From assembly GCA_946537255.1 (NCBI GenBank), contig CAMNFS010000008.1, positions 1 through 51,967 on the forward strand: 51,967 nt of DNA, given 5' to 3'. This document shows positions 14,459 to 29,690 of the stretch, one piece after another; position 1 is the stretch's first letter, and every line of letters starts with the position of its first letter. A model generated the notes under the pieces. It did no database searches. It was given only the letters and a program-made list of their open reading frames with translations, and was not told the DNA's origin. Both the position numbers and the translations under genes were made by a program. Origin of the DNA: an uncultured Erysipelotrichaceae bacterium. Its GTDB lineage: Bacteria > Bacillota_I > Bacilli_A > Erysipelotrichales > Erysipelotrichaceae.

Positions 14459-15820
14459 TCAGTCCTTTACACTGACCCATTCATCCGTTCCGGCAATCCA
14501 GGAATCCTCCCCGATCCGGTACCAGGTATAGCCATAGGCTGTTTTTTCTTCCATTGCCGTATAGGTATGCCCCTTTACCGCCTGACCCTTCAGGGAGGCG
14601 GAGATGCTTGGTCTGGAGCGGATATTCAGATGATCCACATTGACGGTCACCTGAAGTTCCTTCTGTGCATCCGATCTGGCGCGCACTTCTTCTGCGGTTT
14701 CATACTCCACCCATTCATCCGTTCCGGCAATCCAGCGGTTTCTGCCGATCCGATACCAGGTATAGGTACCGTCATTCTCCGTTTCAAACACCCGGTAGCG
14801 CTCGCCGTTTTCCGCATACCCTCTGGCAGTGCCGGTTGTGCGGGGAGCCGATCTCACTCTCAGTTTATCGACATGAACGCTTACCATACCGATCGGATCC
14901 TCCTCTTCTGCCAAAGGCTCAGAGAAAGCAGTATCCGCAAGTTCAGGTCCCGTCTCTTTGACAAGCGAGCTTTCATAGACCATCTGCGTGCTTCCTCCGC
15001 CATCCATGCGGATCGCATCGTGCACCTTCAGATCCGTAAGGAACGAAAGAACGGTCTCTTCGCCAAGCGTTCCATAGATCGTAATCAGAAGAAACTGCCG
15101 ATCCGCCTTCTGGGCAAGGATGGTAAGAGCTCTTCCATAGGTCCGGTAATTGATGTCTCCATACGCTCCGCCGGTGATATCCTGCTGCCTGCCATCCGCA
15201 AAATAGGTATAGGAACCGGATATTGCGTAATCCTCATTGATCCGATAACCACTCGACCAGTGCCAGAGATCATCCCCGTTCCACTGACCCCATGCCCAGC
15301 CATGATACCTGAGCTTCATCTGACCATCCGTGATATAAGCGGTCGCAAAGCCATTCCCATAGGCCGGAGTATTTTTGATCGGACCCCAGCAGGTCCATTC
15401 ATTGTTCCGCCGAACCGCTCCGACCGGCTGACCATAGTTGCCCTCCTCCATCGAGAAGTATCCGCCATTGATCCCTCCGGCATACAGATATCCCCTGTCC
15501 AGCGTCTCCATATCCGCCAGTTCATCCAGATACTGAGGCGTCTCGCAGTAGTCGATCTGCACATGCGTATGTTCACTTGGATTCACCCGCAGGATGTCGT
15601 AGTACACATCCTCCAGAATTCCCTCCTCATGGGTGATATCCTCTGCTTTTCCATCGGTATAGACATTGACTGCCGATACAACCTTGCGTCTCAGCGTGTC
15701 GATCCGTGTCTCTTCATCCCAGGCGTGGGTCACTTCCTCTGCCTGAACCGAAAGCACGGTGCCGCTGCAGAGAAAACAGGCCAGTATCAGGCCCAGAATT
15801 CTGTCAGACTGTTTTTTCAT
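14459..15820 (-). CDS. Secreted phosphodiester glycosidase-domain (NAGPA-type) protein with two SH3-like repeats
   Basis: A 453-residue secreted protein. The signal peptide ends around VQA-EE (residue 26). A central NAGPA-type domain (about 45-285) carries INGGYF (117-122), GRALTILAQKAD and the signature DGGGSTQM (273-280). The family includes the mammalian uncovering enzyme that cleaves GlcNAc-1-phosphodiesters. Two bacterial SH3-like repeats follow (about 312-372 and 391-450), each ending WYRIG...WIAGTDEWV, likely wall-binding. AGAGGTG precedes the ATG. It is paralogous to the next upstream gene. In this locus it may trim or turn over a phosphate-containing surface polymer; the substrate is inference. 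Confidence 0.85.
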   Translation of the reverse strand: MKKQSDRILGLILACFLCSGTVLSVQAEEVTHAWDEETRIDTLRRKVVSAVNVYTDGKAEDITHEEGILEDVYYDILRVNPSEHTHVQIDYCETPQYLDELADMETLDRGYLYAGGINGGYFSMEEGNYGQPVGAVRRNNEWTCWGPIKNTPAYGNGFATAYITDGQMKLRYHGWAWGQWNGDDLWHWSSGYRINEDYAISGSYTYFADGRQQDITGGAYGDINYRTYGRALTILAQKADRQFLLITIYGTLGEETVLSFLTDLKVHDAIRMDGGGSTQMVYESSLVKETGPELADTAFSEPLAEEEDPIGMVSVHVDKLRVRSAPRTTGTARGYAENGERYRVFETENDGTYTWYRIGRNRWIAGTDEWVEYETAEEVRARSDAQKELQVTVNVDHLNIRSRPSISASLKGQAVKGHTYTAMEEKTAYGYTWYRIGEDSWIAGTDEWVSVKD

Positions 15821-15881: not shown

Positions 15882-15904
15882 GACAGCCGGAACTTCCGGC
15901 TGTC
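15882..15904 (-). terminator. Strong inverted repeat at the end of the second NAGPA-type gene
   Basis: Eleven-base arms GACAGCCGGAA and TTCCGGCTGTC are separated by a single base and overlap the TGA stop. The following minus-strand sequence is only moderately T-rich (TGTTCGTTTCT). It may be a weak terminator or an mRNA 3'-end stabilising hairpin. Confidence 0.5.
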
Positions 15905-17447
15905 AGTAAACTTCTTCTTCCTGTCCTGTCGCGGCAATCTCTTCGCCAAGCACTGGCTCAGGCAGGATGGCTGTCTCTTCCTGAACAGGCTCCGGTTCCG
16001 TTTCCATTTCCGCCTCTTTCACGGATTCTGTTTCCTGAATCTCTCCGACGGCGGCAGTTGTGCCCTCAAGGGCTTCAACCCAGCCAGGCAGCGCCGGAAT
16101 CCAGCGCTTTTTGCCGATGCGGTACCAGGAATACACCGCATCCTTTGCCTCTTCATATACCGTATAAACACTGCCCTCATTCAGGGTTCCCACCATTGCG
16201 GATGAAGCATCCGGAGAAGTATGCACTTCGGTATTGCGGGCATTCACACGGATCTGAAAGGGATCCATATCCCGTTCCCGGGCTTCCTGAATCTCGTCGT
16301 TGTCAAAGAATTCGACATCCCCTTCCTTCGTTTCAATCCACCGCTTTTCGCCGATCCGGTACCAGGTGGATTCTTCTTCCTTCTTTTCCTCAAACACCTG
16401 ATAGCGCTCGCCGATGGTAGCCTCACCCTGTTCCTCATCGCCGGCTTTGGCTTCCTCATAAACCGGAATCCGGTCAGCCTGAACAATCAGATATCCAAGC
16501 GTTTCCTCGTCAGTTTCTTCCTCATTGGCCATGGGCATCTCGGTCCATTCCAGCTCCGGCGGCACATTTCTGACATATTCTGTCTCATACACCATCTGAG
16601 TGGAACCGCCGCCGTCAAAGCGGATTGCGTCATAGGCGCCGAGTTCGCCGAGAAAATAACGGATCCGGTCTTCGGCAACCGTGCCGTAGATCGTAATCAG
16701 AAGAAACTGCAGATCTGATTTCTGGGCGAGGATGGTCACTGCCCGTCCGAACGCCCGATAGTTGATTCCGCCGGAACTTCCGCCGGTGATGTCCTGCTGA
16801 ACGCCATTGGCATAATAAGTGAAGGAGCCTGATACACCGAAGGCACCGCCGTCGATCGTATATCCGGTCCACCACGCCCAGCCGGCATCGCAGCACCATC
16901 CGCCGCCGGACCAGCCGTGATATCTCAGTTTCAGATTGTCGCCGTCAATATAGGCAGTCGCAAAACCGCTGCCGTAGGCAGGCGTACACGGTTCCCCATT
17001 CCACCAGGCCCACTCATTGTACCGGCGGACCGCGCCGACCGGTTTGCCATAGTTTCCGCCGCCGCCGTTTTCAAAGTACCCGGCATTGATGGAACCGGCA
17101 AAGTGATATCCCTGTTCCAGCCGGTATCCGTCCACCATTGAATTGATATGGGCGGGAGTGGCGCTGTAATCCACCTGAACCAGTGTGTTTTCCGTCGGAT
17201 TGACGCGCAGAATATCGTAGGTCACGCCGTCAAGAACACCCTCTTCATGCGTGATGTCATCATTTTCGCCTTTGGTATAAACAGAAATCGCGGTACTGAC
17301 GGGACGTCTGAGATAATGAACCCGCTTGGTCTCATCCCAGGAGTTCTGTACCTCCTCGGCATGTACCGGCACGATCCCGTTCACTGTCATAATGGCCAGA
17401 AACAGAGCCGCCGCGATTCCTTTTTTTCTTCTTCTGGTATCTTTCAT
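15903..17447 (-). CDS. Secreted phosphodiester glycosidase-domain (NAGPA-type) protein with SH3-like repeats and acidic tail
   Basis: A 514-residue paralogue of the downstream protein. The signal peptide ends at about VHA-EE (residue 30). The NAGPA-type domain includes INAGYFENGGGGNYGKPVGA, GRAVTILAQKSDLQFLLITI and DGGGSTQMVYE. It has an aromatic, cysteine-containing loop, GWSGGGWCCDAGWAWW, that the paralogue lacks in that form. Two SH3-like repeats follow, ending STWYRIGEKRWI and YSWYRIGKKRWIPALPGWVE, then a tail of about 60 residues rich in Glu, Pro and Thr. A TATAAT lies upstream and a hairpin follows the stop. It probably acts outside the cell on a glycan phosphodiester. Duplication with tail gain suggests a divided role with the shorter copy. 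Confidence 0.85.
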   Translation of the reverse strand: MKDTRRRKKGIAAALFLAIMTVNGIVPVHAEEVQNSWDETKRVHYLRRPVSTAISVYTKGENDDITHEEGVLDGVTYDILRVNPTENTLVQVDYSATPAHINSMVDGYRLEQGYHFAGSINAGYFENGGGGNYGKPVGAVRRYNEWAWWNGEPCTPAYGSGFATAYIDGDNLKLRYHGWSGGGWCCDAGWAWWTGYTIDGGAFGVSGSFTYYANGVQQDITGGSSGGINYRAFGRAVTILAQKSDLQFLLITIYGTVAEDRIRYFLGELGAYDAIRFDGGGSTQMVYETEYVRNVPPELEWTEMPMANEEETDEETLGYLIVQADRIPVYEEAKAGDEEQGEATIGERYQVFEEKKEEESTWYRIGEKRWIETKEGDVEFFDNDEIQEARERDMDPFQIRVNARNTEVHTSPDASSAMVGTLNEGSVYTVYEEAKDAVYSWYRIGKKRWIPALPGWVEALEGTTAAVGEIQETESVKEAEMETEPEPVQEETAILPEPVLGEEIAATGQEEEVY

Positions 17448-17841: not shown

Positions 17842-17868
17842 AAAAAAGGCGGCGGAAGATCCGCTACC
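17842..17868 (-). terminator. Rho-independent terminator of the rmlA-to-GT10 operon
   Basis: Minus-strand GG-ta-GCGGA-TCT-TCCGC-cg-CC followed by TTTTTT. The hairpin includes the TAG stop of the family 10 glycosyltransferase gene. Confidence 0.75.
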
Positions 17869-18862
17869 TTGAACGTTTTTTAGAAAGCATCGTGCCGTTT
17901 GCGATGCGCCTGATCTGATTGGCTGCCCGATGGACACTGGTATGAATATGCTTTTCATAGAACGCATGGCGGAGAATCATCTCATCATGCGCCTTTGTAT
18001 ACATGGAATGAGGTCTTCGGAATGCCTTCTCATACGGCTGATCAATAATATGGATCAGAAACTTCTCAAACAGATCCGGGTCTGCATATTCAAGAACCGG
18101 CGGCTCATTGATCATCGCAAGATAGCGCTCCTCATCCTGATCGATCGCCCGCACTTCTTCAAGCACTTCCTCAAAGCTGTCATAGTCATGACAGGAAACA
18201 AACGCCTTCGGGTTGAAGTCCTCTGCCGCCGTGGGATCTCCGTAATAGATCGGAACTGCCCGTGAAGCAAAGGCATCGACAATCTTCTCTGTTACGTATC
18301 CTGGATAGCAGGCATTTTCACATGCAATGCAGAAGCGGTAGTTTCTGCCGAAAGCGATCTTGTCCTTGACCGCACCGCCCACATTGTTCCGATAGCGGCC
18401 GCCGCTTGCGACAGGCTGATAGGTACTGAGTGTTTCAAACAGTCGGGTCCGATCATCCTGGCCGAAGCAGTTGGACACAACGAAGGAACAGAACCCCTTC
18501 TTTGCCTTCAGCTCTTCCCTTGTAAACACAGGCCGATCCTTTAAGGAAAGATATTCCTTTTCATAGCCATGAAACAGATAGTATGGAAAGCGGATATACC
18601 GGTCGCCGAATTCCAGCCGGTCAAACCCTGCCGCGTAGTCGCATTCATTGAAATCCGGTGTGATGCATTCGCCGGTATAGAAGATGCGCACGCAGTCATA
18701 GTTCAGATGATCCGTTCCGAAAACCGAATAGATCAGATATTCCGGACGATCCTTTGTTACGATCACATCGTAGTGTTTCTTCAGCAGCGGCAGATAGTCA
18801 TTGTTCAGCGGGTCAAAGCCGCGGTGCTGATCCGCAAAGGCAACCCGGATCGTCCGCTTCAT
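17864..18862 (-). CDS. Glycosyltransferase family 10 (alpha-1,3/4-fucosyltransferase-like)
   Basis: A 332-residue enzyme with the GT10 C-terminal hallmark NYRFCIACENACYPGYVTEK (about 174-193), continuing IVDAFASRAVPIYYGDP (194-210). The N-terminal half has DHLNYDCVRIFYTGECITPDF, as in Helicobacter-type enzymes. Characterised members use GDP-L-fucose to fucosylate GlcNAc-containing acceptors. No GDP-fucose pathway (gmd, fcl, fkp) lies in the window. The operon instead makes dTDP-linked 6-deoxy sugars and a galactofuranose-type donor, so the real donor is uncertain. Its ATG overlaps the mutase stop by 4 bp, and it is the last gene before a terminator. Confidence 0.87.
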   Translation of the reverse strand: MKRTIRVAFADQHRGFDPLNNDYLPLLKKHYDVIVTKDRPEYLIYSVFGTDHLNYDCVRIFYTGECITPDFNECDYAAGFDRLEFGDRYIRFPYYLFHGYEKEYLSLKDRPVFTREELKAKKGFCSFVVSNCFGQDDRTRLFETLSTYQPVASGGRYRNNVGGAVKDKIAFGRNYRFCIACENACYPGYVTEKIVDAFASRAVPIYYGDPTAAEDFNPKAFVSCHDYDSFEEVLEEVRAIDQDEERYLAMINEPPVLEYADPDLFEKFLIHIIDQPYEKAFRRPHSMYTKAHDEMILRHAFYEKHIHTSVHRAANQIRRIANGTMLSKKRSR

Positions 18863-20030: not shown

Positions 20031-21053
20031 TTACTGTCTGTCCTTGTACATCTTGGCATAGTAATTCTGATATTCGCCGCTGACAATATGTTCCCACCAG
20101 TCCCGGTTCGAAAGATACCATTCAATGGTCTTCCGGATGCCGCTTTCAAAGCGGTACTCCGGCTTCCAGCCAAGTTCGGTTTCAATCTTGGTCGGATCCA
20201 TCGCGTAGCGCAGATCATGACCGGGCCGGTCCTTCACAAAATGGATCAGGGATTCCGGTTTGTTCAGAACTCTGAGAATGGTCTTTACGACTTCCAGGTT
20301 GGAAACCTCGTTATGACCGCCGATGTTGTAAACCTCTCCATCCCTGCCATTGCGGATAATAAGATCAATCGCCGAGCAGTGATCCGTAACATACAGCCAG
20401 TCTCTGACATTTGCGCCTTCCCCATAGACAGGAATGGACTCATCCGCGAGCGCTCTGGAAATGACTAACGGAATCAGCTTCTCCGGGAAGTGATACGGAC
20501 CGTAGTTGTTGGAGCAGCGGCTGATGGTCACCGGCAGTCCGAAGGTGCGGTGGTAGGCGTTGACCAGCAGATCAGCGGATGCTTTGGAAGCGCTGTATGG
20601 GCTGCTTGTATGAATCGGTGTATCTTCATGAAACAGAAGATCCGGCCGATCCAGCGGCAGATCTCCGTATACCTCATCCGTACTGACCTGATGATAGCGC
20701 TGGATACCGTATTTCCGGCAGGCATCCATCAGGGTCTGAACACCGAGAATATTTGTCTTCAGGAAAATACCGGGATCCTCGATCGAACGGTCGACATGCG
20801 ATTCCGCCGCGAAGTTGACAACAATGTCAAAATGTTCCTTCGCAAACAGATCATCGATGAAATCCCGGTCGGTAATGTCACCTTTGACAAACCGGAAATT
20901 CGGTCTGTCCATAATCGGTGAAAGTGTCTCAAGATTTCCCGCATAGGTCAGTGCGTCCAGGACAACCGTTTCATCCTCGGGATGGCTGTTTACCATCATA
21001 TGAGCAAAGTTGCCGCCGATAAATCCGGCTCCGCCGGTCACAAGAAGTTTCAT
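20031..21053 (-). CDS. rmlB: dTDP-glucose 4,6-dehydratase
   Basis: Extended short-chain dehydrogenase of 340 residues that converts dTDP-glucose to dTDP-4-keto-6-deoxyglucose. It has the NAD motif TGGAGFIGGNF (about 6-16), the catalytic STDEVYGDL (124-132) with the Asp-Glu pair specific to dehydratases, and the YxxxK pair Tyr153/Lys157 in SPYSASKAS. The C-terminal half contains NNYGPYHFPEKLIPL and GANVRDWLYVTDHC, as in RmlB. The ATG at 21053 has GGAGG five bases upstream and overlaps the preceding stop by 4 bp. The product feeds WecE and possibly the neighbouring reductase and mutase. Confidence 0.96.
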   Translation of the reverse strand: MKLLVTGGAGFIGGNFAHMMVNSHPEDETVVLDALTYAGNLETLSPIMDRPNFRFVKGDITDRDFIDDLFAKEHFDIVVNFAAESHVDRSIEDPGIFLKTNILGVQTLMDACRKYGIQRYHQVSTDEVYGDLPLDRPDLLFHEDTPIHTSSPYSASKASADLLVNAYHRTFGLPVTISRCSNNYGPYHFPEKLIPLVISRALADESIPVYGEGANVRDWLYVTDHCSAIDLIIRNGRDGEVYNIGGHNEVSNLEVVKTILRVLNKPESLIHFVKDRPGHDLRYAMDPTKIETELGWKPEYRFESGIRKTIEWYLSNRDWWEHIVSGEYQNYYAKMYKDRQ

Positions 21054-21937
21054 AATTCCCTCCATATCCGCGCTGTCTCAAGCGCGATTCCTTCCTCCAG
21101 TGATACTGCCGGACCCAGTCCGGTCAGCTGTTTCAGTTTTGTAATATCAAGTACGATGGACTGCACCACCGGTACATCGCTCTGCCGGTGTTCGATCCGG
21201 ATCTTCTGACCGGTGTGCCGCTGTACACTGTTGATAATCTCACGAAGACTTGTTCCCTGGCCGCTTCCGACATTGACCGTCTCATTGCATACGCCCTTTT
21301 CCAGAAGCGCGGAGATATATGCGCTGAGATCCGTGATGTAGAAATAATCGCGGACACTGCTGTCACTGACCCACATCTCAAATACCTCATGGCAAAGCGC
21401 CTTGCGGATCAGAATCGGAATCACTCCCTGCTTCTTCTCCGCGAGCTGATAGCCTCCGTATGGATTGGAAAGCCTCAGGATCAGATAATCCATGCCGGCA
21501 TCGCGGATCACCTGTTCACTGACAGCCTTGGATCTTGCATAAAGGCTGATCGGGGCGATGGGATCCGCTTCCGAGATCGGCCGTTCCGTATTGCCGTAAA
21601 TCGTGCCGCCGCTTGAAAAATGCACAAACAGACGGGCCCCGCCCTTTTTCAATGAAGCGGTCAGTTTCCCGTAAAGCGCCCGGATTTTTTCCAGCTCCGC
21701 TTCCTCACGGTCACTCTGTGCCGTATTTGCGACGAGCCCGATCGCGTCAATGATGACAGCGTCACGGAATTCCTGCCGGTCCATGACCGCCTCATCAAAG
21801 GCATTGACCATCCGGAAGGAGTCAAGCAATGGCACATACGGACTGTCGATGCCCCAGATTTCCGCATCAAAACGGTCTTTCAGCAGACCGTACAGATTAT
21901 ATCCGAGATATCCTGCTCCAAGTATGATTATCCGCAT
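21050..21937 (-). CDS. NAD-dependent epimerase/dehydratase (sugar-nucleotide reductase or 4-epimerase)
   Basis: A 295-residue extended short-chain dehydrogenase. It shows IILGAGYLGYNLY (4-16), FSSGGTIYGNTERPISE (catalytic Ser region) and Tyr133/Lys137 in SLYARSKAVS. LRLSNPYGGYQ and VRDYFYITDLSAYI resemble GalE-type proteins. It could be a UDP-glucose 4-epimerase supplying UDP-galactose to the mutase. Its position between rmlA and rmlB instead favours a reductase acting on dTDP-4-keto-6-deoxyglucose, as Fcf1 does for dTDP-D-fucose. It lies 4 bp from rmlA and overlaps rmlB by 4 bp. Substrate is unresolved from sequence alone. Confidence 0.8.
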   Translation of the reverse strand: MRIIILGAGYLGYNLYGLLKDRFDAEIWGIDSPYVPLLDSFRMVNAFDEAVMDRQEFRDAVIIDAIGLVANTAQSDREEAELEKIRALYGKLTASLKKGGARLFVHFSSGGTIYGNTERPISEADPIAPISLYARSKAVSEQVIRDAGMDYLILRLSNPYGGYQLAEKKQGVIPILIRKALCHEVFEMWVSDSSVRDYFYITDLSAYISALLEKGVCNETVNVGSGQGTSLREIINSVQRHTGQKIRIEHRQSDVPVVQSIVLDITKLKQLTGLGPAVSLEEGIALETARIWREL

Positions 21938-21941
21938 TCCG

Positions 21942-22850
21942 CTATGACTTTCTCCGACTCAGCTTTGACTTCACATTCTTTTTGGCAATGGCCCGCAGAT
22001 AGGTTCCGTATGGACTGTGGCCATAGCTTTCGGCAGCCTTCAGCAGGGCATCTTCATCAATCCAGTTGTTGTACCAGGCAATCTCTTCCGGAACCGAGAT
22101 CCGGATCCCCTGCACATCCTCAATCATGCGTACATATTCCGATGCCAGCGAAAGTGACTCAATCGTGCCGGTATCAAGCCAGGCAAAGCCCCGGCCGAAT
22201 ACGGTAATGTCCAGTTCGCCGTTTTCAAGATAGATCCGGTTCAGATCCGTAATTTCATATTCTCCCCGGGCACTTGGCTTCAGACGCTTTGCGTATTCCA
22301 CAACCCGGTTGTCATAGAAATACAGGCCGACCACGGCATAGCTGGATTTTGGATGTGCGGGCTTTTCCTCAAGGGAAATGACCCGTCCGTTTTCATCAAA
22401 CTCCGCGACACCGAACCGTTCCGGATCATTCACATACTGCCCGAATACCCGGGCATGCCCGGTTTCCGTGGTGCAGCGCACAGTTTCTCTGAGCATTGTT
22501 CCGAAATGATTTCCGTAGAAGATATTATCGCCGAGAATCAGGCAGACATCATCATCACCGATAAAATCAGCCCCGAGCACAAACGCCTGGGCAATCCCGT
22601 TGGGCTTTTCCTGCACCTTGTAGGAAAAGGATACGCCGAACTGGCTTCCATCCCCAAGCAGCCGCTCAAAATTCGGAAGATCCTGAGGAGTGGAAATGAT
22701 CAGAATATCCCTGATCTCCGCAAGCATCAATGTGCTCAGCGGATAATAGATCATCGGTTTGTCATAAACCGGCAGAAGCTGCTTCGATGTCACCCTCGTA
22801 AGAGGATACAGTCTTGTACCGCTTCCTCCGGCCAGAATAATACCCTTCAT
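21942..22850 (-). CDS. rmlA: Glucose-1-phosphate thymidylyltransferase
   Basis: Makes dTDP-glucose from glucose-1-phosphate and dTTP, the entry step for dTDP-deoxysugars. The 302-residue protein begins [18 protein letters not shown] with the nucleotidyl signature, followed by [20 protein letters not shown] and [28 protein letters not shown] and GFAWLDTGT complete the family pattern. AAGGAG lies nine bases before the chosen ATG. A six-codon upstream extension has no support. It is the first gene of the five-gene operon. A TAGAAT box at 22878-22883 may be its -10, but no clear -35 was found. Confidence 0.96.
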
Positions 22851-22924
22851 AAGTAAATTCTCCTTCAAGCCGTTCTTATTCTATCACAGAGCAAAAGCCC
22901 GTACGTAATCCCTTCACTGCCTGG

Positions 22925-22963: not shown

Positions 22964-25378
22964 TTATTCGTTTACAGGATTGTCCGACTGTTCGCCATTC
23001 TGCTCTTCCGGGGTGCTTTCCGGCTCCTGAGGAGTTTCCGGTTCCGGATCATTGCCCGGCTCTGGATCCGCGGACGGTTCCGGATCGGTACTTGGCTCCG
23101 GTTCACTGGTCGGGGCTGGCTCCGGCGTTTCCGGTTCAGGAGATACTGTTGGTTCAGCAGTCGGATTCAGCGTCTGTTCTGCCCTTTCCTTTTCCTCCCT
23201 TGTCTCATAGCATCGATTGGTCAGATCGGACCAGACCCACTGATAGGCCTGGCAGGTTTCCGCATCATGAGCCTGAGACGGGCTGGTGAGTTTCGCGGCT
23301 GCCTCCTCGGCTTTGGTGCGGTCTTCCTCGGTCGCAAAGCACTGACCGAGTTTGTCAGACCAGAACCAGCTGAAGGTCTGGCAGGCAGTTGCCGTCTTTA
23401 CTTCCGAAGCACTCTGGGGAGCAGCACTCGGCGTTGGCGTAGCAGTGGCACCGTTCTGGGCAACCGTTACGGAAATGCTCGAGATGCCCTGGATGCTGGA
23501 GCCGGCCGGTACCGACTGCGACAGAATGGTTCCTTCTGCCGCTGCTGCGTCCGCCACATAGGTCACAGACAGAGAGATCCCCTGCGCATCGCAGAATGAC
23601 TGCAGACTTCCGAGCGGCTTACCGACATAGTTTCCGATCGTAGTCGGAACCGTGCTCGGGATGATTGCCTCGTTATAGGTTTCCGCGGAAATGGTCGGAA
23701 CATAGAAATCCCAGTTGACAGACCACTGCAGGGATTTGTCCTGCGTAATCGGAGTATTGAGATTGATATTGCGTTCGATCGCTTTCCGGGTATCCGCAAG
23801 GGATCCCTGCCAGAGCCGGTAGATGTAAAGCGACATCTGCAGTCCCTCATCCCAGAGTCCGCTGGAATAACCGGTTACCCGGCTGCCCTGCAGCTGGATG
23901 ACCTTTTCGACATGGTCCTGATCATAATAGCGGTTTGCCTTCTGCAGCGCATAGCTCATGAAGCCGGTCATCTGTGACAGCGAGAGATTGGTCTGAATAT
24001 TGTCTCCCGCGGCATCCATGACATCGAGCAGCGTATTGATGTCACGGGTCCGCATGATCTTTCTGAGAATGGCTTCAATTACTTCCTGCTGATGTTCCTG
24101 ACGGGCAAAGTCACCGGTTGAAAACAGATGCCGTTCGCGCGCGAAGGCAAGTGCCTGTTCTCCATTGAGCAATACATCCTTGCCGGCCGGAACCCAGACC
24201 GTATAGGCACCGCGCTCACTGTCGGAATTCTGACCCACGAACTCAATCGGGGAATCCACGACAATTCCGCCCAGAGCATCCACGACCTGTACGACGCCCT
24301 TGAAGTTGGTATCGACATAGTAGTCAATATCCACCCCGACAAGATTCTGTATCGTATTGATCAGACAGTCCCGGCTGACCGCGTGAGCCGCGTTCAGCTT
24401 GGAGGAATTGCCGCCATAGCAGCTGATCGGAACATAGGAGTCACGGGCAAGCGAAGACATCGTGACCTTCATGGAGATCGGATTGACCGAGCAGAGAATC
24501 ATCGTATCCGAAAGCCCGTCCGCGTTGCCGATCAGAAGAACCGTGAATGGTTCCTTGGTAAGATCCTTATCAGAACCGGAGGTATTTTCCACCGTAACCG
24601 TCTTTTCAAAATCCATGATGGACGCGGTATTGTTCAGAAACTCCTCCATTCCGGTTTCATTGGCAAAGAGATTTTTGTAATTGGTCGGCAGAACCGCGCA
24701 GTCGATCTCGCCATTGAACAGCGCGAGAATCACGGAGGAATAGTCCTGATACTCACTGAAGTTCACATTGACCTTCTCGCTTTCGATCTGCGCTTTTCCA
24801 AGCGCTGCCGTCTGGGTTCCGGTGGCCAGACCGACCGATCGGCCATCGAGCTGTTTGATCTCTGTATACCGCTGCGTTCCGGTATCGGAATAGACAACAA
24901 AACTGGTCGAAACGCTTTCCTTGGTCGTAGAGCTTGTCATCTTGTCAACGTTCCGGTTCACCCTGCCAAGGGCATAGGTGCCGTAAAGGCCGATGCCAAG
25001 CAGTCCAATCATCAGCACAATGCCGGTGATAAAGACCGATTTCGTGCGGGTACGGATTCCGTACATGAGAGCCATATTCATCATGATCAGAATGATGATG
25101 CACAGAATATTCACCGTCACGAAGGTCTTGCCGGAAAGATTGGCGAACCGGGTGGAATTGAACAGCGTGATGATGACCGCAAGATTGGCGATAACCGCAA
25201 GCACGGTCACCACGATATTGATATTCGTCATATCCCGGTGGAATCGGTTGGATGATCTTGAACTCTGCGCTCTTGCGGAATGGCTGGAAGCAGAGCGACT
25301 TTTCTCCGTAGGGTTCTGCGGTTTTTGAGCGGAGTTTTTTCTTGCCGGGGTCTGTTCCGGGGTTTTTCTTTCACTCAT
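22964..25378 (-). CDS. Multidomain LytR-CpsA-Psr (LCP) family protein with PASTA domain and Cys/Trp repeats
   Basis: LCP proteins transfer lipid-linked polymers such as teichoic acid or capsule to peptidoglycan. This 804-residue protein has a basic Ser-rich cytosolic tail (1-50) and three membrane helices (about 52-73, 85-108, 114-134). Next comes a region resembling a solute-binding-type domain (about 155-262: GLATGTQTAALG, FNGEIDCAVLP). The LCP domain (277-500) has LSDTMILCSVNP, LARDSYVPI, SSKLNAAHA and the arginine motif AFARERHLF...GDFARQEHQQ. A PASTA-like domain follows (578-642), then two Cys/Trp repeats (664-695, 707-738) and a Glu/Pro-rich tail (739-804). Start: ATGA overlap with the previous gene and GGGAGGGAC. 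Confidence 0.9.
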   Translation of the reverse strand: MSERKTPEQTPARKNSAQKPQNPTEKSRSASSHSARAQSSRSSNRFHRDMTNINIVVTVLAVIANLAVIITLFNSTRFANLSGKTFVTVNILCIIILIMMNMALMYGIRTRTKSVFITGIVLMIGLLGIGLYGTYALGRVNRNVDKMTSSTTKESVSTSFVVYSDTGTQRYTEIKQLDGRSVGLATGTQTAALGKAQIESEKVNVNFSEYQDYSSVILALFNGEIDCAVLPTNYKNLFANETGMEEFLNNTASIMDFEKTVTVENTSGSDKDLTKEPFTVLLIGNADGLSDTMILCSVNPISMKVTMSSLARDSYVPISCYGGNSSKLNAAHAVSRDCLINTIQNLVGVDIDYYVDTNFKGVVQVVDALGGIVVDSPIEFVGQNSDSERGAYTVWVPAGKDVLLNGEQALAFARERHLFSTGDFARQEHQQEVIEAILRKIMRTRDINTLLDVMDAAGDNIQTNLSLSQMTGFMSYALQKANRYYDQDHVEKVIQLQGSRVTGYSSGLWDEGLQMSLYIYRLWQGSLADTRKAIERNINLNTPITQDKSLQWSVNWDFYVPTISAETYNEAIIPSTVPTTIGNYVGKPLGSLQSFCDAQGISLSVTYVADAAAAEGTILSQSVPAGSSIQGISSISVTVAQNGATATPTPSAAPQSASEVKTATACQTFSWFWSDKLGQCFATEEDRTKAEEAAAKLTSPSQAHDAETCQAYQWVWSDLTNRCYETREEKERAEQTLNPTAEPTVSPEPETPEPAPTSEPEPSTDPEPSADPEPGNDPEPETPQEPESTPEEQNGEQSDNPVNE

Positions 25379-26223: not shown

Positions 26224-27150
26224 TTACTCATAGAACTTTTTGATAATGTAGTTCGGACGATGGCGCACTTCATCGTATACCTTGGCGAGATATTCGCCGA
26301 GAATTCCGCTGGAAAGAAGAATGACGCCGCCCATGAACAGAACCAGGGCAATCAGAAGGCTGGTCCCGCTGATCGAGTGTCCAAGCAGATTCAGGATGAA
26401 CATCGCGATCAGAACAATCAGCATGATGATTGTCAGGATACCGCCGACCCAGCTGGCAATGGACAGCGGCATGACCGTATACTCAATAATCCCATCCAGC
26501 GCGTAGCGGAACAGCTTCGGAAAGGACCACTTGGTTTCTCCGGCGACCCGCTTGATATTCTCATATTCCAGATACTCGCACTTGAATCCAACCCAGACAA
26601 ACAGTCCCTTGGAAAACCGGCCGTATTCCTTCAGTGAAAGAATACTGTCAACCACCTGGCGCTTCATAAGCCGGAAATCCCGGGCTCCGTCCACGATCTC
26701 CACTTCCGTGAAGCGGTTGATCAGCTGATAGAACTGCCGGGCAAACCAGGAACGGATCTTCGGCTCACCCTTGCGGGTCACCCGGCGGGTGCCCACGACA
26801 TCATCGTTGTTGGCTTCCATGACCGCGAACATCTTCGGAATATACTCAGGAGGATCCTGAAGATCCGCGTCCATGACGGTGACATAGTCCCCCTTCGCAG
26901 CCCTGAGTCCTGCCAGAAGCGCGCCTTCCTTGCCGAAGTTGCGGGAAAAGTCAATCACCTTCACTACTCCGGGATTGGCATGATAAAGACGCACCATTTT
27001 TTCCAGTGTGCTGTCTTTTGATCCGTCATTGACAAAAATCACTTCATATTTGAGATCCATGGTCCGAAGCACTTTCATCAGCGCCTCAAAGAACAGATCA
27101 ACTGTTTCTTCTTCGTTGTAGCACGGGACTACGATTGACAGTAATGCCAT
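26224..27150 (-). CDS. Family 2 polyprenyl-phosphate-type glycosyltransferase (GtrB/CsbB type)
   Basis: A 308-residue enzyme likely to make undecaprenyl-phosphate-linked sugar. The GT-A core shows LSIVVPCYNEEETVDLFFEA, VNDGSKDST, FSRNFGKEGALLAGL and the DxD motif in VMDADLQDPPEYIP (94-96). Two C-terminal membrane helices (about 231-255 and 265-290) precede GEYLAKVYDEVRHRPNYII. It is the second enzyme of this class here; the other is at 8846-9778. Such enzymes usually pair with a small flippase and an outer-face GT-C enzyme. GGAGG lies six bases before the start, behind a good promoter. Confidence 0.9.
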   Translation of the reverse strand: MALLSIVVPCYNEEETVDLFFEALMKVLRTMDLKYEVIFVNDGSKDSTLEKMVRLYHANPGVVKVIDFSRNFGKEGALLAGLRAAKGDYVTVMDADLQDPPEYIPKMFAVMEANNDDVVGTRRVTRKGEPKIRSWFARQFYQLINRFTEVEIVDGARDFRLMKRQVVDSILSLKEYGRFSKGLFVWVGFKCEYLEYENIKRVAGETKWSFPKLFRYALDGIIEYTVMPLSIASWVGGILTIIMLIVLIAMFILNLLGHSISGTSLLIALVLFMGGVILLSSGILGEYLAKVYDEVRHRPNYIIKKFYE

Positions 27151-28658: not shown

Positions 28659-29690
28659 ATGACGGATGCAAGGAAAAGAAAGAAACGGAAAAAAAGGCGG
28701 CTGAAAGCCAGAATCCGGCGAACCTTCCGGCAGACTGTGATGATGGTTGCTGTATGTCTCATCACCTTTGCCCTTTTTGCGTATATTGCCCTTCTGATTA
28801 TTCTGAAGGGGCCAAGTCCCACCTTCTCCAACATGGTCGTTTCCACCATGTGGGAAACCCGGCGCGGAAAGGCGATTGTTCGGACGATGTTCACGGAAGA
28901 TGAAATAGAGGCAATCCTTTCCAAGAACGCGGTTGACAACACCACCACGGTTGCCAATGTGACGGAGAATGACTATGGCGAATTCAATATTCCCGAGTCC
29001 GAGAAAAACCGGATTGATGTAGTGGATGTGTCCGGCGGTACCTTCAAGGGCAAGCTGATGATCATCCGTGACCCGTCCCGTGTGCATCTCGGGGTCAATT
29101 CCCTGATGCCCGGCGGCAATACCGGTTATTCCGTACAGGATTATGTGGAAGAACTCGGAGGTCTTGCGGGAATCAACGGCGGCGGTTTTGATGACCCCAA
29201 CGGCAAGGGCGACGGCTCCATTCCGCAGGGAATCGTCATCCGGGACTCCAAGATTGTTTTCGGATCGCCAAGCGATTATGAATGCCTGATCGGCTTCAAT
29301 ACCGCGCATCATCTGATCGTCGGTGACATGACCGGCGAGAATGCCCTGGAGTGGGGTATTACGGACGCCGTCACCTTCGGCCCGGTGCTTGTCTATGATG
29401 GCCATGCCTGCGCGATTACCGGCAACGGCGGCGGTCTGAACCCCCGCACCATCATCGGTCAGCGGGCAGACGGGGCGGTGCTGATGCTGGTGATTGACGG
29501 AAGACAGACCACCTCACTTGGCGCGTCCTACGAGGACTGCATCGAAATCATGCTGGAAAACAACGCGATTGTCGCGGCAAATCTCGACGGAGGCTCCTCT
29601 TCCGTCATGTACTATAACGGCAAAATCATCAACAACGTAGTTTCAATGAACGGAGAACGACTGGTACCTACTGCATGGATCGTGAAGTAA
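28659..29690 (+). CDS. Membrane-anchored phosphodiester glycosidase-domain (NAGPA-type) protein
   Basis: A 343-residue protein. It has a strongly basic cytosolic N-terminus (RKRKKRKKRRLKARIRR), one membrane helix (about 27-49) and an extracellular NAGPA-type domain. The domain shows GLAGINGGGFDDPNGKG (168-184), PRTIIGQRADGAVLMLVIDG and NLDGGSSSVMYYNG (308-321). It is more distant from the two secreted paralogues at 14459-17447 and lacks their SH3-like repeats, so it would act close to the membrane. The ribosome binding site is poor. Its last 16 bases overlap the next gene, which suggests coupled translation. Opposite in orientation to the surrounding glycan genes. Confidence 0.85.
   Translation: MTDARKRKKRKKRRLKARIRRTFRQTVMMVAVCLITFALFAYIALLIILKGPSPTFSNMVVSTMWETRRGKAIVRTMFTEDEIEAILSKNAVDNTTTVANVTENDYGEFNIPESEKNRIDVVDVSGGTFKGKLMIIRDPSRVHLGVNSLMPGGNTGYSVQDYVEELGGLAGINGGGFDDPNGKGDGSIPQGIVIRDSKIVFGSPSDYECLIGFNTAHHLIVGDMTGENALEWGITDAVTFGPVLVYDGHACAITGNGGGLNPRTIIGQRADGAVLMLVIDGRQTTSLGASYEDCIEIMLENNAIVAANLDGGSSSVMYYNGKIINNVVSMNGERLVPTAWIVK

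Follow-up and report, generated by a model that had tools for sequence, protein, structure and literature searches.

Gene content of the locus

The window, a stretch of 51,967 nucleotides from an uncultured Erysipelotrichaceae bacterium, was found to contain a real gene for an 804-aa LCP glycopolymer transferase (Table 1), whose ATG start overlaps the stop codon of the upstream gene (ATGA) and is preceded by the purine-rich stretch GGGGAGGGAC. The closest relatives were found in Solobacterium-like metagenome-assembled genomes from the ruminant gut, and a full-length relative with 77% identity was present in genome G210. The host is a Solobacterium-like member of Erysipelotrichaceae, and the LCP gene sits in a rhamnose/glycan cluster.

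The 275-aa protein encoded upstream matched no family in Pfam or NCBIfam and is likely the operon partner of the LCP gene. The nucleotidyl transferase and epimerase/dehydratase genes downstream are likely to serve dTDP-rhamnose-type sugar synthesis, and UDP-galactopyranose mutase, GT10 fucosyltransferase, flippase and additional GT2 genes were also present downstream. The GT10 gene (17864-18862, minus strand; FucT_N, 6.6e-34) encodes an alpha-1,3-fucosyltransferase, so that a fucosylated surface glycan is possible. Three phosphodiester-glycosidase (NAGPA) proteins were also found in the window (14459-15820 and 15903-17447 on the minus strand, 28659-29690 on the plus strand), two of which contained C-terminal bacterial SH3 domains and signal-peptide-like starts.

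Table 1. Features of the LCP gene and its neighbours in the window
Feature	Position	Strand	Basis or remark
LCP glycopolymer transferase with C-terminal PASTA domain and Cys/Trp units	22964..25378	-	Pfam, PDB sequence matches, relative in G210
Three predicted N-terminal transmembrane helices, residues 51-148	24935..25228	-	Long helices in the model; Cps2A-like layout
Accessory domain, residues 152-264	24587..24925	-	One lobe, type II solute-binding-protein fold, as in Cps2A
LCP catalytic domain, residues 290-441	24056..24511	-	Pfam, 1.2e-37
PASTA domain, residues 580-640	23459..23641	-	Pfam, 2e-6
Cys/Trp unit 1, residues 654-691	23306..23419	-	Predicted: C666 in a helix; W673 and C680 in a hairpin; then a Glu/Ala-rich helix
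Cys/Trp unit 2, residues 697-734	23177..23290	-	C709, W716, C723
Acidic Pro-rich terminal linker, residues 740-804	22967..23161	-	Sequence
275-aa protein with one predicted membrane segment	25375..26202	-	Upstream; 4-nt overlap with the LCP start
GT2 glycosyltransferase	26224..27150	-	Upstream, same gene run as LCP; Pfam, 6.5e-38
Nucleotidyl transferase and two epimerase/dehydratase genes	20031..22868	-	Directly downstream of LCP; Pfam

Domains ahead of the repeats

The catalytic domain that a sequence-only reading of this DNA had proposed was recovered by PF03816 (LCP) with 129.8 bits against a curated cut-off of 24.6, and the catalytic Arg/Asp residues R312-D313, R414 and R416 were invariant in 11 orthologues. 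The NCBIfam model LCP_trans_Cps2A matched residues 49-536, whereas the CpsA equivalog NF051849 scored 152 bits, under its cut-off of 650; the protein thus has the Cps2A architecture, yet is not the streptococcal CpsA itself. Matches in the PDB were the Cps2A structures 2xxp, 3tep and 3tfl, the accessory region included.

The same reading had noticed a binding-protein-like region at residues 155-262 as part of an unusual domain chain. The solute-binding-protein-like nature of the region (residues 152-264) was borne out both by sequence (TIGR01096, 1.8e-5) and by the predicted fold, but its novelty was not, as it is the already known accessory domain of the Cps2A type. In VIA-align, the accessory-domain model matched 3tep (Cps2A) with Z 12.9, rmsd 2.5 over 102 aa and 22% identity, 2xxq with Z 12.9 and 22% identity, XAC2383 with Z 13.5, and lobes of type II solute-binding proteins with Z of about 13. 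The AF2 model of the LCP core was built from a shallow alignment and had a mean pLDDT of 49, and the accessory domain alone was used (pLDDT mostly about 80). Two further matches in the N-terminal part were set aside, namely WTF, which falls on the transmembrane region and is just above the cut-off, and Phosphonate-bd (E 0.093), which agrees with the accessory domain as a solute-binding-protein lobe. By its domain, its residues and its accessory fold the enzyme is a Cps2A-type LCP, for which glycopolymer transfer to peptidoglycan is predicted.

The PASTA-like domain anticipated at residues 578-642 was matched by Pfam with 28.1 bits (cut-off 23.2) and with a VIA-align Z of about 10 to the PASTA of PBP2x. 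The acidic Pro-rich tail expected at the C-terminus was present as well.

Sequence, fold and distribution of the Cys/Trp unit

The region between the PASTA domain and the terminal linker was found to contain the repeats CQTFSWFWSDKLGQC (C666-C680) and CQAYQWVWSDLTNRC (C709-C723), 43 aa from start to start. Both copies of the motif read earlier as C-Q-x3-W-x-W-S-D-x5-C are real, but the spacing has to be corrected to C-Q-x3-W-x-W-S-D-x4-C. The core of the repeat is C-x6-W-x6-C and the whole unit comprises about 38 aa. Twenty related units, from relatives and from another protein, could be aligned without gaps (alignment A1), and the two Cys and the second Trp were the only invariant residues; the first Trp and the Q of the motif were variable. 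When the residues of the repeat region were shuffled, two C-x6-W-x6-C matches were obtained in 1 of 200,000 shuffles.

In the AF2 prediction, for which the LCP protein and six orthologues were used, each unit was ordered and consisted of a short helix with the first Cys, a hairpin of two strands in which the Trp and the second Cys lie, and a further helix. The 10-residue means of pLDDT over the units were 77-89 (77-86 in unit 1, 79-89 in most blocks of unit 2), and a model from seven sequences is given moderate weight. No Pfam or NCBIfam family was found above its curated cut-off and no sequence relative was found in the PDB, in line with the earlier impression that the repeats belong to no named family. 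Matches to DUF5832, RANK, PSI, Antistasin and EGF_Teneurin were all under the cut-off and were rejected. In the fold search the list was filled by PASTA, and the units were touched just by weak zinc-finger rows with Z of about 2.

Since alignment A1 includes the repeats of the LCP protein, the E-values of its profile for these repeats are circular. Outside A1, the profile matched, among others, the LCPs of G131 and G145 and an open frame of 293 aa in G210 that contains four units (E 4.7e-11 and further values). Strong matches were found in the own genus and in the genera g33 and g48, on LCP, on SGNH hydrolase and on another ORF. In a phylum sample of 392 genomes, seven contained a unit match at E <= 0.01, six of them in Erysipelotrichaceae; the seventh lay elsewhere in the class and was weak (5.7e-4, interrupted frame). 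All the strong matches fell within Erysipelotrichaceae. A search in phage, plasmid and IMG/VR proteins gave no unit, and support of the endolysin type for wall binding is thus absent. No paper on such tails was found among open-licence papers. The Cys/Trp unit is a real, recurrent and selected module and represents an unnamed small-domain family.

Cysteines and predicted disulfides

Among 39 Cys-bearing LCP tails, 34 contained an even and five an odd number of Cys (p 2e-6, relatedness ignored), with the single PASTA Cys of the clade of the 804-aa protein excluded. A pattern search gave 48 related units, four of which failed the strict pattern; on reading by eye both Cys were present in these four, one of them displaced. 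One disulfide per unit, as had been suggested from the sequence, is likely in view of the even Cys counts and the predicted fold.

The LCP domain itself was found to contain the Cys pair C320/C338, which is conserved nearly throughout the family; both residues were lost in L143 and L144, and C338 was present without C320 in L014, L021 and L028. A second extracytoplasmic pair, C227 in the accessory domain and C296 in the LCP domain, occurred together in the own clade and was mostly absent elsewhere in the family, while C227 alone was retained in some members of the genus and in a few other relatives.

A search of the own genome gave neither VKOR nor a Thioredoxin_4 (DsbA-like) protein. With PF00578, four strong TlpA-like proteins were detected, among them a lipoprotein and a fusion of CcdA with TlpA. 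The loci L197, L198, L200, L201 and L202 were found to encode a CcdA-TlpA fusion, TlpA on a 4Fe-4S membrane protein, and thioredoxin-like lipoproteins. By these annotations the extracytoplasmic thiol system of the genome is rich although neither VKOR nor Thioredoxin_4 was found, and it permits disulfides and proves none.

Tails shared within genomes and different between species

On another, unlinked contig of the own genome, a membrane-anchored SGNH/GDSL hydrolase (G000:C19:10620-12035; L002, L092; Lipase_GDSL_2, 5.9e-13) was found to end in two Cys/Trp units, the second of which is stretched, and in a sister species a third protein ended in such a unit. This recurrence on other proteins, together with the selection on the peptide described below, rules out that the repeats are drift in one protein.

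Within the genus, orthologues of LCP and SGNH hydrolase were taken from as many as 60 genomes. The catalytic cores were conserved, whereas the tails were of different kinds: Trp units, KYWYDNxC with CANNGGTWDGxxC (CxNNGGTWDGxxC), CWDGSTAxSExxC, CGENAYESGGACYCNEGYTGD, CQDPNALNNGDMANPC, EGF-like, PASTA with HTHSY..CSCGDSYTE, and plain PE-rich tails. The number of repeats was also variable. Some members of the genus contained plain PE-rich tails without Cys, so that the module is dispensable in those species.

Within one genome, the LCP and SGNH tails were usually of one kind. Tails of 13 genomes with Cys in both were compared by Smith-Waterman alignment with low-complexity residues masked, G613, a very close relative of G607, having been left out on account of its truncated LCP. 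The average score was 188.7 within a genome and 48.5 between genomes, and none of 20,000 permutations reached the within-genome value. With about one genome per lineage and the PASTA domain removed, 2 of 362,880 permutations did so (identity included), in either of two sets. In G222, G607 and G234 each tail was closer to its same-genome partner than to its own orthologue in the other genomes of the set of 13. The tails of G602, G603 (not above shuffled tails) and G177 did not match, and G198 was marginal.

The tails were also found on further proteins. In G234, a 1640-aa secreted BspA-type LRR protein (L190:593-5512, minus strand, contig G234:C100; LRR_5, 7.8e-99) contained a C-terminal tail almost equal to the tails on LCP and SGNH hydrolase in that genome, and in the portion inspected it contained neither an LPXTG motif nor a C-terminal transmembrane segment. 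With a combined query, a lipoprotein of G607 was found to carry the tail, and in several genomes the motif CxNGGTWxxxxC was found in the tails of class A PBPs. C-terminal CxxxGGTWDxxxxC repeats were observed in the class A PBP-like proteins L059, L060, L062, L063, L067, L071, L192, L193 and L195. The carriers, among them LCP, PBP1A and an LPXTG surface protein, are located in the wall or act on it, and the tails were combined with PASTA and MucBP domains. Beyond the sequence-only reading, it was observed that further envelope proteins of a genome carry the same tail type and that species differ in this type.

Selection on the tail peptide

Between the LCP and SGNH tails, the peptide was 87% identical in G234 with identity at 52 of 84 fourfold third positions (62%), 72% in G226 (47 of 75 fourfold sites), 69% in G218 (31 of 63) and 43% in G000 (10 of 28, 36%). 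The peptide was kept alike while the silent sites diverged, which argues that it is selected; as judged from these codon comparisons, the tail peptide is under selection and its likeness is not mere copying.

Proposed role of the tail and alternative explanations

The presence of one tail type on an unlinked enzyme of the same genome suggests that each species has a common device of its own by which surface proteins would be held to the wall. In the model that we favour, with a probability of about 0.48 for the whole, a Cps2A-type LCP would attach the wall glycopolymer made by the cluster to peptidoglycan, and its C-terminal extension would act as a modular envelope-retention tail in which the PASTA domain and, after it, two small domains project on a linker that is flexible, acidic and rich in Pro. 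Each small domain (helix, beta-hairpin, helix) would contain a buried Trp, would be closed around it by a single Cys-Cys disulfide and may bind a component of the own cell wall, so keeping the enzyme at the site of polymer attachment. This kind of tail would be reused within a species on the SGNH hydrolase, the BspA-type LRR protein, the lipoprotein and class A PBPs, and it would be swapped between species most probably because the wall ligand differs; the ligand, which is proposed here, would most simply be the glycopolymer made by this cluster and attached by this LCP. Binding of the Cys/Trp tails to wall or glycan and a species-specific ligand are put forward as proposals, and the strongest hint for retention comes from the secreted LRR protein of G234, which ends in the tail and has neither LPXTG nor a C-terminal transmembrane segment in the portion inspected. 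Counting against retention, the LCP, SGNH and lipoprotein carriers are already anchored in the membrane, some species do without the units and some genomes fail to match.

The units might instead be short, stiff, disulfide-closed beads of a ligand-free stalk, which set how far the catalytic domain extends through the wall while the tail types drift and spread by recombination between genes. The linker-like setting rich in Pro, Thr and Glu, the free variation of tail type and repeat number and the plain PE-rich tails of some species would fit this explanation, but a spacer would not have to be alike on the different proteins of a cell, the Trp is invariant in every unit and the peptide is kept across unlinked genes despite diverged synonymous sites; we consider it rather unlikely. 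Recent copying of DNA between loci, by which the within-genome match would be functionally meaningless, could draw on the ready recombination of internal repeats and on some tail pairs that are very alike, and is made highly improbable by a fourfold identity of 36% in G000 and of 62% in G234, where the peptide is 87% identical. Like tails could also pair mutually or with one partner and so gather LCP, SGNH hydrolase, PBP and surface proteins into one assembly; pairwise recognition would leave within-genome matching and the carriers are wall-synthesis enzymes, but a large LRR surface protein carries the tail too, and this docking appears quite improbable.

Tails might further mark acceptors for the glycopolymer of the species, which the LCP or a different transferase would attach to them, in the way that LcpA of A. 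oris acts on GspA. Glycosylation of a surface protein by an LCP enzyme is known (PMC6381275), Thr/Pro-rich linkers adjoin the units and the tail is common to the LCP itself and to other proteins, but several tail types, including that of the 804-aa LCP, have few Thr/Ser in their linkers, and such a role is very unlikely. A more general view, which is speculative and seems unlikely to us as a whole, is that each species uses one repeat type as an address on a set of wall enzymes and surface proteins that are unrelated to one another, that a private ligand (the LCP transferase itself, a partner or the glycopolymer of the species) reads the tail, and that type and reader change together in evolution.

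Returning to the retention model, the general pattern is that envelope proteins encoded at unlinked loci have a tail type in common within a species, and that this type is replaced by another from species to species. Should the tails read the own wall polymer, wall chemistry could be inferred per tail from sequence, and the tails would provide wall-binding modules with species specificity for gut Firmicutes, for which, to our knowledge, few such modules are known.

Comparison with known systems

Choline-binding repeats are short and rich in aromatic residues, and a single species uses them on many of its wall proteins. The Cys/Trp unit would resemble them (CW_binding, PF01473) in the proposed mode of working and differs by its two Cys; PF01473 was absent among the Pfam matches of the LCP protein up to E 10. 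The unit also recalls the hairpins of CBM14 and PSI (plexin), which we take to be Cys-closed, with an aromatic residue and C-x5-6-C spacing. PF01607 (CBM14) was likewise absent among the Pfam matches up to E 10, and PSI matched the SGNH tail with E 0.21, under the cut-off.

The Cps2A/CpsA of S. pneumoniae contains the same three N-terminal transmembrane helices, accessory domain and LCP domain, to which the present protein adds the PASTA domain, the two Cys/Trp units and the conserved Cys pair of the LCP domain; according to a review, the accessory domain is optional and non-conserved (PMC7831098). LcpA of Actinomyces oris is an LCP enzyme with a stabilising disulfide that glycosylates a surface protein (PMC6381275). 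Its disulfide lies within the LCP fold and depends on MdbA/VKOR, whereas the extra disulfides of the present protein are predicted in the tail units and no VKOR was found in the genome. In CwpV of C. difficile, the C-terminal repeats are of unrelated sequence types that vary by strain while the role is kept (PMC3080850); there it is one protein that varies, whereas here several proteins of a genome share the tail type.
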